From Blattabacterium cuenoti (GTDB lineage Bacteria > Bacteroidota > Bacteroidia > Flavobacteriales > Blattabacteriaceae), in contig NZ_CP059182.1 of NCBI RefSeq assembly GCF_014251255.1, forward strand, positions 124,001-188,000: a stretch of 64,000 nucleotides of DNA, written 5' to 3'. The notes below the pieces were generated by a model. The model worked only from the letters and a program-made list of their open reading frames with translations, did not search any database and had not been told where the DNA came from. This document shows, piece by piece, positions 8,916-20,802 of the stretch. How positions within the stretch are numbered: the stretch's first letter is position 1; each line of letters begins with the position of its first letter. Both the position numbers and the translations under genes were made by a program.

Positions 8916-10280
8916 ATGGAAGAAAAAGAACAATTTTTTTTTAAAATTTACAATTTAGGAATTATTAAGTTTGGTTCCTTTACTTTAAAAAGTGGAATGA
9001 CTTCTCCTATTTATATAGATTTTCGTCCAATTGCTTCTAGACCAGACTTATTAAAGAAATTATCTGATTTACTTCTTAATGAAATTCCATCTCATACATT
9101 TGAACTAATTTGTGGAGTTCCATATGCCGCTTTACCTATAGCTACGACTTTGTCGTTAAGATCAAATATTCCTTTGATTATTAAAAGAAAAGAAAATAAA
9201 GGTTATGGGACAAAACGAATGATAGAAGGCATTTATAAAAAAGGACAAAATTGTCTTCTTATAGAAGACGTAATTACTAGTGGAGACAGTTTGTTAAAAA
9301 CTATTATAGATATTGAAAAAGAAGGATTGATCATAAAAAATATTCTATCTATTCTTGATCGTGAACAAGGTGGGATAGAAAATATAAAAAAAAGAGGATA
9401 TAACATACGAACTCTATTTTGTATAGGAGAAGTTTTAAAAATGCTAGAAAAAAAACATCTTTTAAAAAAAAAAGAAATCCATATCATTCAATTTTTTTTT
9501 CAAAAAAAAAATTCAAAAGAATTACAAGAAAAACGTCTTTCTTATGAAAAAAAGAAAGAAAAAATATCTCATCCCATAGGAAAAAAACTTATTGATATAA
9601 CATTAAAAAAAAAAACGAACTTAATCGTTTCAGCAGATTTAATCTATGCTGAATCCATTTTAAAATTGGTGAATTCTATTGGAGATTTAATTTGTGGATT
9701 AAAACTTCATGTAGATATTATTAATGATTTTTCTCTTTCATTTATAACATTTCTTAAAGATATTTCTATAAAAAAGAAATTTTTCTTATTTGAAGATAGA
9801 AAATTATGTGATGTTGGTCCTACAAATTTTCTTCAACTACATCATGGTATACATAAAATTTCTTCATGGGCGGACATTATTACTGTCCATGTTATTGCGG
9901 GAAGTGAAAGCATACAAAATTTGAATATTCCTTCTAATATGGGATTAATTACTGTATCTGAAATGTCTTCTTATGGGAAATTATCAGATGATAATTATAT
10001 CAGAAAAGCATTAAATATTTCTTTGAAAAATCCAAAAGTAATTGGAACAGTAGCGCAAAGAAAAGTAGATGATAGATTATTATTGTTTACTCCTGGAATA
10101 CATTTTTCTGAATCAAAAAATGATAAAGGAAATATATACGTTCATCCTATTCAAGCTTTTGAAAAAAATAAAAGCGATTTTATCATAGTTGGAAAAGCAA
10201 TCTATCAATCAAAAAACCCAAAAATAATAGCAGAAAAATATAGAAATGCAGGATGGAAAGCCTATGAAAAAGGACTTTAA
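8916..10280 (+). CDS. bifunctional UMP synthase: orotate phosphoribosyltransferase + OMP decarboxylase fusion
   Basis: One 454-residue protein covering the last two steps to UMP. Residues about 1-190 are PyrE, with the PRPP loop LLIEDVITSGDS at 114-124. A lysine-rich linker (about 180-215) leads to PyrF at about 216-454, with catalytic K263 and the FEDRKLCDVG segment (D294, K296, D299). Domain order and sequence (SADL, KLHVDIINDF, ASWADI-like SSWADII, FIIVGKAIY, AAWEAY-like GWKAYEKGL) resemble eukaryotic UMP synthase, including the segment joining the domains (HPIGKKLIDI..KKTNL). The open frame crosses an 11-A run (9605-9615). Confidence 0.94.
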   Translation: MEEKEQFFFKIYNLGIIKFGSFTLKSGMTSPIYIDFRPIASRPDLLKKLSDLLLNEIPSHTFELICGVPYAALPIATTLSLRSNIPLIIKRKENKGYGTKRMIEGIYKKGQNCLLIEDVITSGDSLLKTIIDIEKEGLIIKNILSILDREQGGIENIKKRGYNIRTLFCIGEVLKMLEKKHLLKKKEIHIIQFFFQKKNSKELQEKRLSYEKKKEKISHPIGKKLIDITLKKKTNLIVSADLIYAESILKLVNSIGDLICGLKLHVDIINDFSLSFITFLKDISIKKKFFLFEDRKLCDVGPTNFLQLHHGIHKISSWADIITVHVIAGSESIQNLNIPSNMGLITVSEMSSYGKLSDDNYIRKALNISLKNPKVIGTVAQRKVDDRLLLFTPGIHFSESKNDKGNIYVHPIQAFEKNKSDFIIVGKAIYQSKNPKIIAEKYRNAGWKAYEKGL

Positions 10281-11010: not shown

Positions 11011-11365
11011 TCATTTCATAATAGAAAATATTTTTTTTATAGACTGATTTATCTCTTTAAATTTTGGTAAATGAATTCCTATATAAATAAAAATAATCTG
11101 ATAAATTGTATCACTACATTTTATTTTTTTTTCTAAAGTCAATTTGTTCAAAAAAAATGAAGCTCTTAATAAACGTTTTATTCTATTTCTATGAACGGCT
11201 TTCTGAAACTTTTTTTTTTACTAAAGTTCCAATTAAATTTATTGTTTTTATTTTTTTTAAACTCTTTTCTTTTTCAGATATCAGGACAAAAACAAGAACA
11301 GGAAATACTGAAAAAGATCTTCCGTATCTTATTATTGCATAATGTAAATTTTTTTTCTTTTTCAT
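11011..11365 (-). pseudogene. rnpA: ribonuclease P protein component, frameshifted in a poly-A tract
   Basis: Reading from ATG 11365, the frame encodes RYGRSFSVFPVLVFVL and other RnpA-like sequence, then hits stop codons just after a run of ten A (minus strand; T run at 11210-11219). Dropping one A restores a frame encoding KKKFQKAVHRNRIKRLLRAS, the diagnostic RnpA basic signature, and continuing through IYIGIHLPKF to TGA at 11011. Total length (about 117 residues if repaired) fits RnpA, the protein cofactor of tRNA 5' maturation. Either it is a recent pseudogene, a sequencing error, or it is expressed by polymerase slippage. It directly follows fbp, whose stop lies 25 bp upstream. Confidence 0.88.
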
Positions 11366-11389: not shown

Positions 11390-12394
11390 TCAATCATAAT
11401 TTCTAATAAATTCTTCTAATTTAGATACCATTTTCATAGGACCACAAATAAATGGAGTTCTTTGATGCAAATTCATGGGTTGAATATCTAAAATACGTTT
11501 TTTTCCATCAGACGCTTTTCCACCAGCTTGTTCTGTTAAAAATGCCATAGGATTACATTCGTAAAGTAACCTCAATTTTCCACAAGGAAAATAAACTGTT
11601 TTAGGATAAATGTATATGCCGCCTTGTATCATATTTCTATGAAAATCTCCTACTAAAGATCCAATATATCGTGCTGTATAAGGACGATTTTCTTTTTTTT
11701 CTTGACAGTACTTTATAAAATTTTTAATTCCATCAGGAAATATAGCATAATTTCCTTCGTTGATAGAATAAATTTTTTCCCCTTTAGGAAAATGAAGATT
11801 AGGATGAGATAAATAAAAAGTTCCCAAAGAAGGATCCAAAGTAAATCCATGAACTCCATTTCCTGTAGTAAATACTAAAATTGTAGAAGATCCATAAATA
11901 ATATATCCTGCAAGGATTTGTTTATTTCCTTTCTGCAAAAAATCTTCTATTGTTAAATCCATTTGAATAGAAGTATTTCTTCTTATATAAACTGAAAATA
12001 TTGTTCCTATAGGAATATTCACATCTATATTAGAAGATCCATCAAGTGGATCTATTAAAACAATATATTTGTTTTGAAATAGATTCTCTTTTTCTTTTTC
12101 TATAATTATAAAATCTTTACTTTCTTCTGACGCAATTCCGCAAACTACATTTCTGCTTTTGAATGATTCTATAAAAGCTTTATGTGCAAATTGATCCAAT
12201 TTTTGTTGTGTTTCTCCTTGTATATTAGTAAAACCAGAACTTCCTATAATTTCTTCTGTTAATCCTGCTTTATTCACTTCCTTATTAATAGCTTTAGCAG
12301 CCAACTTAATAGAACTAAATAATCGTAATAAAGCCTCTGTAGAATAGAAAAATTTCTCTCTATTTTCTATAATAAATTCTCCTAATGTATACAT
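11390..12394 (-). CDS. fbp: fructose-1,6-bisphosphatase, class I
   Basis: Hydrolyses fructose-1,6-bisphosphate to fructose-6-phosphate, the committed gluconeogenic step. The metal-binding motif [13 protein letters not shown] and the preceding ASEE are class I hallmarks; the C-terminal active-site part GGKLRLLYE-like [16 protein letters not shown] is intact. ATG 12394 ([10 protein letters not shown]) gives 334 residues, the family length; the frame is open for 17 more codons upstream but these look non-coding. Works with class II aldolase (fbaA, 51.1 kb). Confidence 0.95.
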
Positions 12395-12531
12395 AATGAT
12401 GTCAAAAAATAATAATACAAATTTGATGAAATCATATTTAATCAAGATTTTTTTCTTCTAAAAAGATAGAAATATTCTGATTAAGTCAAATCACTTTTTT
12501 TTTAAAACATTAAAAAAAAAGTTATAAATTT

Positions 12532-13397: not shown

Positions 13398-13892
13398 ATG
13401 ATTTCTTATAAAAAAACAATTCATATTTATACTGATGGATCTTCTAAAGGAAACCCTGGTCCTGGAGGATATGCCATTTTTATAGAAATAGTTGGAACTC
13501 CTTATAAAAAAATAATTTCTGAAGGATTTAGATATACTACGAACAATAGAATGGAACTATTAGCAGTAATAGTTGGATTAGAAAAAATTACAAAAAAAAA
13601 ACAAAACATAATTGTATTTACAGACTCTAAATATATAGTCAATCCCATTCAAAATAATTGGATTTCCAAATGGAAAAAAAATAATTTTTACAAAAAAAAA
13701 AATGTAGATTTATGGATTAGATTTTTAGAAATATTTGACAAACATTTTATTATATTTCAATGGATAAAATCTCACAAAAATCATTATTTTAATGATTTTT
13801 GTGACAGGTTATCTGGAAAGGCTTCCAAAAATAAAAACCTAAAAATAGATTATGTTTATGAAAAAGAACAACAAAATCTCAAAAAGAGTTAG
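13398..13892 (+). CDS. rnhA: ribonuclease HI
   Basis: Cleaves RNA in RNA-DNA hybrids. The opening IYTDGSSKGNPGPGGYA carries the first catalytic Asp (D13); Glu in NNRMELLAV (E53) and Asp in VFTDSKYI (D76) complete the visible core, with a further Asp in FCDRLSGKAS. It is 164 residues, close to family length. It starts immediately after the plsC stop and converges on the SpoU methyltransferase gene with a 12-bp gap. Confidence 0.95.
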   Translation: MISYKKTIHIYTDGSSKGNPGPGGYAIFIEIVGTPYKKIISEGFRYTTNNRMELLAVIVGLEKITKKKQNIIVFTDSKYIVNPIQNNWISKWKKNNFYKKKNVDLWIRFLEIFDKHFIIFQWIKSHKNHYFNDFCDRLSGKASKNKNLKIDYVYEKEQQNLKKS

Positions 13893-14704: not shown

Positions 14705-15157
14705 ATGAAAATATTTGATGTGATGAATTATAAGAAAATTTATAAAAATGATAGAGATTGTATGAACACAGCTATTGAATGGTCTCAATTGTCTTATTGT
14801 AAAAAAAAAAAAGTAGGAGCTGTTATAGTTAAAAATCATAGAATTATATCTAATGGATATAACAGAACTCCAAACGGATTTGATGATAATATATGCGAAG
14901 ATAAAAATGGAGAAACAAAATGGTATGTTTTACATGCAGAAGCAGATGCTATATTAAAAATGGCATCATCTTCAAAGTCTTGCAAAGAGGCTTCGTTATA
15001 TATAACACATGCTCCATGTAAAGAATGTAGTAAATTAATTCATCAATCTAAAATTAAAAGAGTTGTATATTTACATAGTAAATGTTCCCCAATAAGAAAT
15101 GATGTATTAAATTTTTTTGAAAAATCTAAAATAGTTATAGAACAATTTTCTTTTTAA
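14705..15157 (+). CDS. deoxycytidylate (dCMP) deaminase
   Basis: Converts dCMP to dUMP, feeding thymidylate synthase (thyA, 23.1 kb). The zinc site is HAEADAIL (H77, catalytic E79) and APCKEC (C105, C108). The insert between GYNRTPNGF and the HAE motif, with an acidic/cysteine segment (NICEDKNGETKW), is typical of dCMP rather than cytidine deaminases. ATG 14705 avoids overlap with the divergent methyltransferase gene; ATG 14723 is an alternative. A 12-A run at 14801-14812 encodes four lysines in frame. Confidence 0.93.
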   Translation: MKIFDVMNYKKIYKNDRDCMNTAIEWSQLSYCKKKKVGAVIVKNHRIISNGYNRTPNGFDDNICEDKNGETKWYVLHAEADAILKMASSSKSCKEASLYITHAPCKECSKLIHQSKIKRVVYLHSKCSPIRNDVLNFFEKSKIVIEQFSF

Positions 15158-18289: not shown

Positions 18290-18345
18290 TCATCGTCTAT
18301 CTTTAATGTTGGGAAAATTTTTTGAATAATTTTAATCATTGAAAA

Positions 18346-20802
18346 ATGCAAGTGCAAGTTTTAAAATTTGGAGGAAGTTCCGTAGCTCATTCTAATGCCA
18401 TAAAACGTATTTGTTCTTTATTAGAAAAAAAACCAAAAGGAAAATATGCAATTGTTGTATCTGCATTAGGGAATATTACCGATCAATTAATACAATGTGG
18501 TCAATTAGCTTCTGAAAGAAGAAATATTTACAAAAATATTTTAGAAAAAATAGAAATTCGTCATCTTAATCTCATAAGAGAATTATTTCCAATAACTGAT
18601 CAAAGTCATTTAATCAGTTGGATTAAAAAAAATATTAATGATTTAGAAAGTTTATGTGATGGTATTTTTCAAGTAGAGGAACTTTCCAAACGTTCTTTAG
18701 ATAAAATAATGAGCTTTGGAGAACTTAGTTCTTCTTTTCTTATTTCAGAAAAATTAAAACAATCTGGATTAGATGCTATTTGTAAAGACAGTAGAGAATT
18801 AATTATAACAGATTCTCAATTTGGATGTGCTCAAGTCGATTTTATTACTAGCAATCATCATATTATTCAATTTTTTAGTGAAAAAACATCAGAATATATT
18901 GTTTTACCGGGATTCATAGGCTCTACTTTAGAAAATGAAACAACTACTCTTGGAAGAGGGGGATCTGATTATACTGCATCCATTTTAGCTGCTGCAATAT
19001 CTGCTAGTTTACTTGAAATATGGACAGATGTAAGTGGAATGATGACAGCTAACCCAAAAATAGTCAATCAAGCTTTTCCTATAAAAGAGATTTCTTATGA
19101 GGAAGCAATGGAATTATCACATTTTGGAGCAAAAGTTATTTATCCACCAACAATACAACCTGCGATGAAGAAACACATTCCCATACAAATTAAAAATACT
19201 TTTTCTCCTTCAGATCCTGGAACTTTGATTTATATCAGAAAGGAAAAAAACATCAGTCAACCTGTTACAGGTATTTCTGGAATTCAGAATTTAGCTTTAT
19301 TAACTCTTGAAGGAAGTGGAATGGTAGGAGTTCCGGGTTATTCCAAACGTTTATTTGAAGCTTTATCACGTGAAAAAATAAATGTCATTTTCATCACACA
19401 AAGTTCTTCAGAACATTCAATTACTACAGGAATACATGAAATGGACATCATTAAAGCAAAAGCTGTAATAGATAGTGAGTTTGCTCAAGAAATCCATCAA
19501 AAATGTATTGATCCATTAAAAATAGAAAAAGATCTTTGTATTATTGCCGTAGTAGGAGATAACATGAAAAATCTTCACGGAACAAGTGGAAAAATGTTTT
19601 CTTCTTTGGGAAGAAATAGTATTAATGTTAGAGCTATAGCGCAAGGGTCTACAGAAAAGAATATATCAGCAGTTATTCAAAAAACTGATTTTAAAAAAGC
19701 TTTAAATACTTTGCATGAAGCTTTTTTTGAAAGTCCTCCAAAACAAATTAATCTTTTTATTTGTGGAGTTGGAAAAGTAGGAAGTAAATTACTTGAACAA
19801 ATTGATCAACAAAAAAATTATCTGCTTAAAGAATTAAAACTTCAAGTAAGAGTTATTGGATTAGCTAATAGTAAAAAAATGTATTTCAATAACAATGGAA
19901 TCAATAATTTATGTAAATGTACTGATTTTTTAAATAAAAACGGACATAAAATGAATGTTTACTCTTTTATAAAAAAAGTGTGGAAACTTAATCTAAGAAA
20001 TAGTTTATTTGTAGATAATACAGCTAGTGAAGAAATGGCGATGACTTATGAAAAATTCTTGAAAAATGGAATTGGAGTTATCACTTGTAATAAAATAGCT
20101 TGTTCTTCTGATTATGATCATTATAAAAAATTAAAAACTCTTTCCAGACACTTTAAAGCACCGTTTTTATTTGAAACAAATGTAGGAGCAAGTCTTCCTG
20201 TGATTAGTACTTTAAATGATCTTATCAATAGTGGAGATAAAATTAATAAAATAGAAGCTGTCTTATCTGGAAGTTTAAATTTTATTTTTAATCATTTTAT
20301 TGGAGAAAAATCTTTTTTAGAAGCGGTACAAGAAGCACAATCTAAAGGATATACGGAACCGGATCCTAGAATAGATTTGATTGGATTAGATGTGATGCGA
20401 AAAATACTTATTTTAGCAAGAGAATGTGGATCTCCTTTAGAACTATTTGATATTCAAAAAAAATCATTCCTTCCTAAAAGTTGTTCGAATGCTATTTCTG
20501 TAAATAGTTTTTATAAAGAATTACATCAACATAGAGATTATTTTTCCAATATAAGAAAAAAAGCAGAAAAAGAAGAAAAACGTTTACGTTTCATAGCTCG
20601 TTATGAAAACGGAATTGCTTCTGTAGGATTAGAATCTGTTAAACAAAGTCATCCTTTTTATCAATTGGAAGGAAAAGATAATATGGTTTTGTATAATACA
20701 TATCGTTATGATGAACAACCTCTGATCATAAAAGGTGCTGGAGCAGGAGCAGAAGTGACTGCATCGGGAGTTTTTTCTGATATTATTAAAGCTACTAAGT
20801 AA
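18346..20802 (+). CDS. thrA: bifunctional aspartokinase / homoserine dehydrogenase
   Basis: Catalyses steps one and three of the aspartate family pathway. The 818 residues comprise an aspartokinase domain opening LKFGGSSVA (residues 6-14), two ACT regulatory repeats (about 310-460; e.g. EGSGMVGVPGYS and VGDNMKNLHGTSGKMFSSL) and a homoserine dehydrogenase domain from about 468 (NLFICGVGKVG NAD(P) site; VLSGSLNFIFN; GYTEPDPRIDLIGLDVMRK). ACT domains suggest feedback control by threonine is retained. First gene of thrA-thrB-thrC, 5 bp from thrB. Confidence 0.97.
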   Translation: MQVQVLKFGGSSVAHSNAIKRICSLLEKKPKGKYAIVVSALGNITDQLIQCGQLASERRNIYKNILEKIEIRHLNLIRELFPITDQSHLISWIKKNINDLESLCDGIFQVEELSKRSLDKIMSFGELSSSFLISEKLKQSGLDAICKDSRELIITDSQFGCAQVDFITSNHHIIQFFSEKTSEYIVLPGFIGSTLENETTTLGRGGSDYTASILAAAISASLLEIWTDVSGMMTANPKIVNQAFPIKEISYEEAMELSHFGAKVIYPPTIQPAMKKHIPIQIKNTFSPSDPGTLIYIRKEKNISQPVTGISGIQNLALLTLEGSGMVGVPGYSKRLFEALSREKINVIFITQSSSEHSITTGIHEMDIIKAKAVIDSEFAQEIHQKCIDPLKIEKDLCIIAVVGDNMKNLHGTSGKMFSSLGRNSINVRAIAQGSTEKNISAVIQKTDFKKALNTLHEAFFESPPKQINLFICGVGKVGSKLLEQIDQQKNYLLKELKLQVRVIGLANSKKMYFNNNGINNLCKCTDFLNKNGHKMNVYSFIKKVWKLNLRNSLFVDNTASEEMAMTYEKFLKNGIGVITCNKIACSSDYDHYKKLKTLSRHFKAPFLFETNVGASLPVISTLNDLINSGDKINKIEAVLSGSLNFIFNHFIGEKSFLEAVQEAQSKGYTEPDPRIDLIGLDVMRKILILARECGSPLELFDIQKKSFLPKSCSNAISVNSFYKELHQHRDYFSNIRKKAEKEEKRLRFIARYENGIASVGLESVKQSHPFYQLEGKDNMVLYNTYRYDEQPLIIKGAGAGAEVTASGVFSDIIKATK

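Follow-up and report, generated by a model that had tools for sequence, protein, structure and literature searches.

The only rnpA gene of Blattabacterium cuenoti in the 632,233-bp, one-contig genome studied here is divided between two reading frames that meet at a run of ten A. Of 49 genomes from the genus, 38 have the gene out of frame at the corresponding run. The shift occurs in both wrong phases, both halves of the gene are conserved, and the frame is intact wherever the run is interrupted. We consider it probable from these comparisons of sequences that rnpA is functional and that its full-length product depends on slippage at the poly(A) run, most likely in transcription.

The split rnpA gene in one genome and across the genus

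The protein component of RNase P is needed for making tRNAs, and rnpA is normally essential. In the window, by which we mean the whole stretch of 64,000 nucleotides that was analysed (bases 124001-188000 of the contig), reading of the sequence places rnpA on the minus strand at 11365-11011. The upstream frame (11189-11365, minus strand) starts with the ATG at 11365 and reads MKKKKNLHYAIIRYGRSF...NLIGTLVKKK through the N-terminal half, then continues out of frame for nine codons to a TAG, giving 58 codons with the stop at 11189-11191. The downstream frame (11011-11214, minus strand) reads KKKFQKAVHRNRIKRLLRAS...IFSIMK and encodes the C-terminal half to the TGA at 11011-11013; it alone codes for AVHRNRIKR (11173-11199, minus strand), the RnpA signature that contains the RNR motif. 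The junction of the two frames, and the proposed slippage site, is the A10 run (11210-11219, minus strand; T10 on the plus strand). Such a run is unremarkable by itself, since runs of at least ten A or T are common (30 in the 64-kb window); the notable feature is the out-of-frame junction within a conserved gene. Upstream of rnpA, on the same strand and after a gap of 24 nt, lies an fbp-like gene (11390-12445, minus strand).

The single continuous reading frame expected of RnpA is not found in the DNA of the window, where two frames are joined at the A10 run. The initial annotation had described this arrangement and had proposed that the gene becomes continuous, signature included, once nine A are read; our reading of the sequence agrees on both points. 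With one A removed there is no stop, and the gene has the length expected of RnpA, with a product of 117 aa. In a profile search, this joined reading covers positions 9-107 of the 109 in Pfam PF00825 (Ribonuclease_P) with E=3.9e-12, above the curated cut-off. The downstream half alone matches positions 49-107 of PF00825 (E=4e-9), the upstream half alone gives no match to that profile, and the joined reading scores 31.2 against TIGR00188, under the cut-off of 38.35. The RNR motif is present as RN[RK]I[KR]R across the rnpA alignment of all 49 genomes, and the segment around it aligns to solved RnpA chains. A second, intact rnpA, which the initial annotation had regarded as incompatible with its proposal, was looked for in the 632,233-bp genome and was not found. 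The RNase P RNA is single-copy in each of the 49 genomes and lies here at 123213-123507 of the contig, just ahead of the window.

We compared rnpA in 49 Blattabacterium genomes of 0.51-0.64 Mb, each of which carries one copy. We called the phase from the distance that separates the G(T/I)LV codons from the (S/A)V.RN codons, a linker of 18 or 21 nt being counted as in frame. The window's linker, from the codons for GTLV to those for AV.RN, has 19 nt, and those of intact relatives 18 or 21 nt, so that the run carries one surplus A or lacks two. The "one extra A" of the initial annotation is thus accurate relative to the shorter in-frame form, and relative to the 21-nt linker the run equally lacks two. 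The comparison with relatives that had been called for at that stage finds the gene split in both phases: among the 38 out-of-frame genomes, 18 share the window's phase and 20 are in the other, and every one of them has an A run of 9-13 at the site. In ten genomes rnpA is in frame and open through the linker. Strain Bge (G042) has a linker that is in frame by count yet contains a TAA. In G041, assigned to a Cryptocercus punctulatus strain, rnpA is in frame at the A run and an extra T in the downstream half alters the C-terminus, which is either an error or a second shift.

The tree was built from the neighbouring fbp and marC genes, with G015 as root. On it the three rnpA phases require at least 24 changes, a figure that is approximate because many branches of the tree are weak. 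Clear single-base phase switches are found between close, well-supported sisters (G034/G022, G020/G046 and G041/G001). Beyond what a single genome can tell, the comparison shows the split throughout the genus and in both phases, and also in a second gene, encoding dCMP deaminase, which lies 3.4 kb from rnpA and repeats its pattern.

Pure and interrupted A runs in rnpA and the dCMP deaminase gene

The rnpA run is short or interrupted, with a longest A run of 6-7, in G002, G006 and G015, and the gene is in frame in all three; the closest relatives of two of these genomes (G016 and G017; G014) have rnpA out of frame. An independent replicate comes from the dCMP deaminase gene (14720-15157, plus strand), which is in frame in the window and split at its A run in most relatives. 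Its A12 run (14801-14812, plus strand) is A11, and the gene out of frame, in 30 of the 48 readable genomes. Pure tracts are present in 41 of these 48, and 32 of the 41 are out of frame (30 with A11 and two with A10), the other nine being in frame with A12, while the interrupted tracts are in frame in 7 of 7 cases. The tract of G009 is A11. When both genes are pooled, interrupted tracts are in frame in 10 of 10 cases and pure ones in 17 of 87. Fisher's test, in which one miscall is counted against the association, gives p=6e-6, a value that is optimistic because the rows are related; as we read the tree, the ten tracts go back to about eight separate events of interruption. This pattern is expected if a pure run makes an out-of-frame gene usable. 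In G045, assigned to a Blatta orientalis strain, the deaminase gene (locus L141, minus strand, near 1543-2031) seems to contain an internal stretch of about 100 bases that is duplicated in tandem.

A survey for further split genes, covering the window plus about 65 kb in ten relatives, found recurrent splits at A runs in rnpA and the dCMP deaminase gene. Most of the other splits listed in this survey were open frames that extend upstream of the likely start, and short fbp entries were rejected as frameshifts, their differences lying ahead of the likely start. The rnhA gene (RNase H; 13398-13892, plus strand), with orthologs in G047, G021 and G030, is apparently broken at an A run, or close to one, in two or three relatives and is possibly a weaker case of the rnpA kind. 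In G015, the smallest genome (511,065 bp), the ortholog of a large aspartokinase-like gene (18310-20799 in the window) matches in two frames, with a junction that has no A run and that looks like ordinary gene decay.

In the mechanism that we propose for rnpA, RNA polymerase would slip on the long A run and produce mRNAs of varying A number. The fraction in which the frame is restored, in the window by one A fewer or two more, would give full-length RnpA, and the remaining mRNAs would yield a shortened protein that lacks the RNR motif and is presumably inactive. Correct transcripts may suffice even as a minority, since the cell probably needs few copies of RnpA. The DNA could drift among the three phases almost neutrally through replication slippage, because any pure run of about nine A or more would give some in-frame mRNA; once the run is broken by another base, the correct frame would be required in the DNA.

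A less likely route to full-length RnpA is that the ribosome changes frame on poly(A) mRNA, by frameshifting or by sliding on AAA codons. A-rich slippery codons are present, and in the A11 genomes the upstream frame of the deaminase gene ends in AAA AAA AAA AAG TAG, with the stop right after the run, which resembles a -1 site. This gene, whose tract is nearly fixed at A11, could be brought into frame either by a -1 shift of the ribosome or by one base inserted in transcription. The occurrence of rnpA in both wrong phases, however, would require +1 and -1 shifts alike, and there is no stable structure 3' of the window's tract (z 0.34); rnpA does not show the fixed direction and downstream stimulator of programmed -1 ribosomal frameshifting. 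Since the two wrong phases are similarly frequent, a process that yields several lengths, as transcriptional slippage would, fits best.

Slippage dependence might further be an old, maintained mode of expression for a small set of Blattabacterium genes, including at least rnpA and the deaminase gene, with selection keeping the runs as dose-setting elements and holding the deaminase tract at A11, one short of in frame, in those 30 of 48 species, G015 among them. We regard this extension as speculative and rather doubtful.

Constraint on both halves of rnpA

The initial annotation had judged the sequence on both sides of the tract to be well kept and free of other stops, and the genus bears this out. 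Within the 57 codons that begin the downstream part, the rnpA frame contains 0 stops in 2793 codons, and the other two frames contain 299 and 378. In close genome pairs with both members out of frame, pN/pS is 0.43 (CI 0.34-0.53) downstream and 0.41 (CI 0.30-0.54) upstream, and for same-phase pairs the downstream value is 0.52 (0.36-0.76); these ratios are blind to the share of each branch spent in frame. The downstream frame is under purifying selection, pN/pS is below 1 in both halves and neutrality is rejected, with a constraint that is weaker than that on fbp (0.16) and marC (0.07).

These values bear on the possibility that rnpA is a decaying pseudogene, with RNase P acting as RNA alone or with a host or other protein in RnpA's place. 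Pseudogene status is the published view for strain Bge (PMC2768785), and the Bge stop, the extra T of G041 and the lower constraint relative to the neighbouring genes speak for it. A pseudogene should nevertheless accumulate stops and approach a pN/pS of 1, which rnpA does not do, and the gene is present in every genome and in frame whenever the run is interrupted; we find this explanation improbable. A recent null mutation, an alternative that the initial annotation had kept, is now unlikely as well, given that throughout the genus the downstream frame has no stops and is held by purifying selection.

Conservation of both halves would also suit a split RnpA assembled from two separately made proteins. 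In 37 of the 38 split genomes, however, no ATG, GTG or TTG lies ahead of the RNR motif in the downstream frame, that of the window opens just six codons before the motif and has no start codon there, and ten relatives carry one frame through the linker, which makes this arrangement very improbable.

Homopolymer sequencing or assembly error, also raised at the outset, retains next to no probability: a run of ten A is difficult to read, and odd bases stand elsewhere in rnpA in two assemblies (G041 and G042), but the 49 assemblies together keep 98 of 98 pyrEF and pyrD genes in frame over 150 A runs of at least ten (104 in pyrEF and 46 in pyrD), so that error fails to explain a split found in 38 genomes at one common site. 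In the window, pyrE and pyrF (8916-10280, plus strand) form one continuous frame of 454 codons, an arrangement seen throughout the genus, and the frame holds in all 49 genomes although they contain 132 A runs of at least nine there.

Relation to known slippage systems and to the reported pseudogene of Bge

In Buchnera and Blochmannia, genes with a frameshift have been described as rescued by poly(A) slippage (Tamas et al., 2008; Wernegreen et al., 2010; as recounted in PMC3017870, PMC4389277 and PMC5009743). As far as these accounts describe them, the cases share with rnpA an AT-rich insect endosymbiont as host genome, a frameshift in a long A run and a gene that is otherwise intact and constrained, and some of the frameshifts are old. 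The 38 out-of-frame rnpA genes likewise carry their frameshift in a long, unbroken A run and are otherwise open, and they show the purifying selection past the shift that marks slippage-rescued endosymbiont genes. Blattabacterium, a member of the Bacteroidota, differs from the cases so recounted in that the gene is rnpA, most species are affected, phase switches are many and the frame returns where the run is interrupted; correction of transcripts is shown in Buchnera and Blochmannia and is proposed for the Blattabacterium rnpA.

Published transcript data from such symbionts bear on slippage in both directions. Slippage on comparable runs corrects 12-50% of the transcripts in genes of Buchnera and Blochmannia (PMC5009743; PMC3017870). 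Against slippage counts a transcriptome study of Buchnera, in which the insertion rate climbs exponentially with run length but no transcription error restored a frame, and runs lost bases less often than they gained them (PMC5574713); the window allele requires one A fewer or two more. We also count against slippage the weaker constraint on rnpA than on fbp and marC, the TAA of Bge and the extra T of G041. Rescue by slippage, as the initial annotation had suggested, nonetheless stands as the best explanation and gains support from the genus comparison; the slippage itself we infer.

In dnaX, a run of about nine A gives products in more than one frame, the shorter and the longer product are both used, and the site is fixed. 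The rnpA gene resembles dnaX, whose slippage on A runs is reviewed in PMC5009743, in having an A run, and differs from it in its drifting phase and in that the full-length protein is the one product expected to function.

The genome paper of strain Bge (2009) lists rnpA as the sole pseudogene and ascribes a stop near codon 53 of the 118-aa gene to an A-to-T mutation (PMC2768785). This is the same gene and the same place, but a point mutation of one strain was described there, whereas we find a genus-wide poly(A) frame change of which Bge carries an unusual allele. After the GTA codon, G031 and G028 read A9-CTTT-A6 and Bge reads A9-CTTT-A5, so that the Bge stop is better explained by run-length changes. 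Its in-frame TAA is beyond repair by a single slip and may be an error or a real loss.

We found no description of the genus-wide rnpA pattern in a search of the open-access literature. The kind of phenomenon is already known, while its extent, the free drift of phase and the return to frame on interruption appear to be new. The 2009 Bge "pseudogene" is thereby re-explained, which advises caution against scoring such genes as lost in reduced genomes. About 40 natural alleles, with 9-13 A and in two phases, are on offer for measuring slippage in RNA from cockroach fat body. Our results suggest that, where a poly(A) run allows the frame to be corrected during expression, the DNA frame of a normally essential gene can turn nearly neutral throughout a genus and is needed again only after the run is broken.
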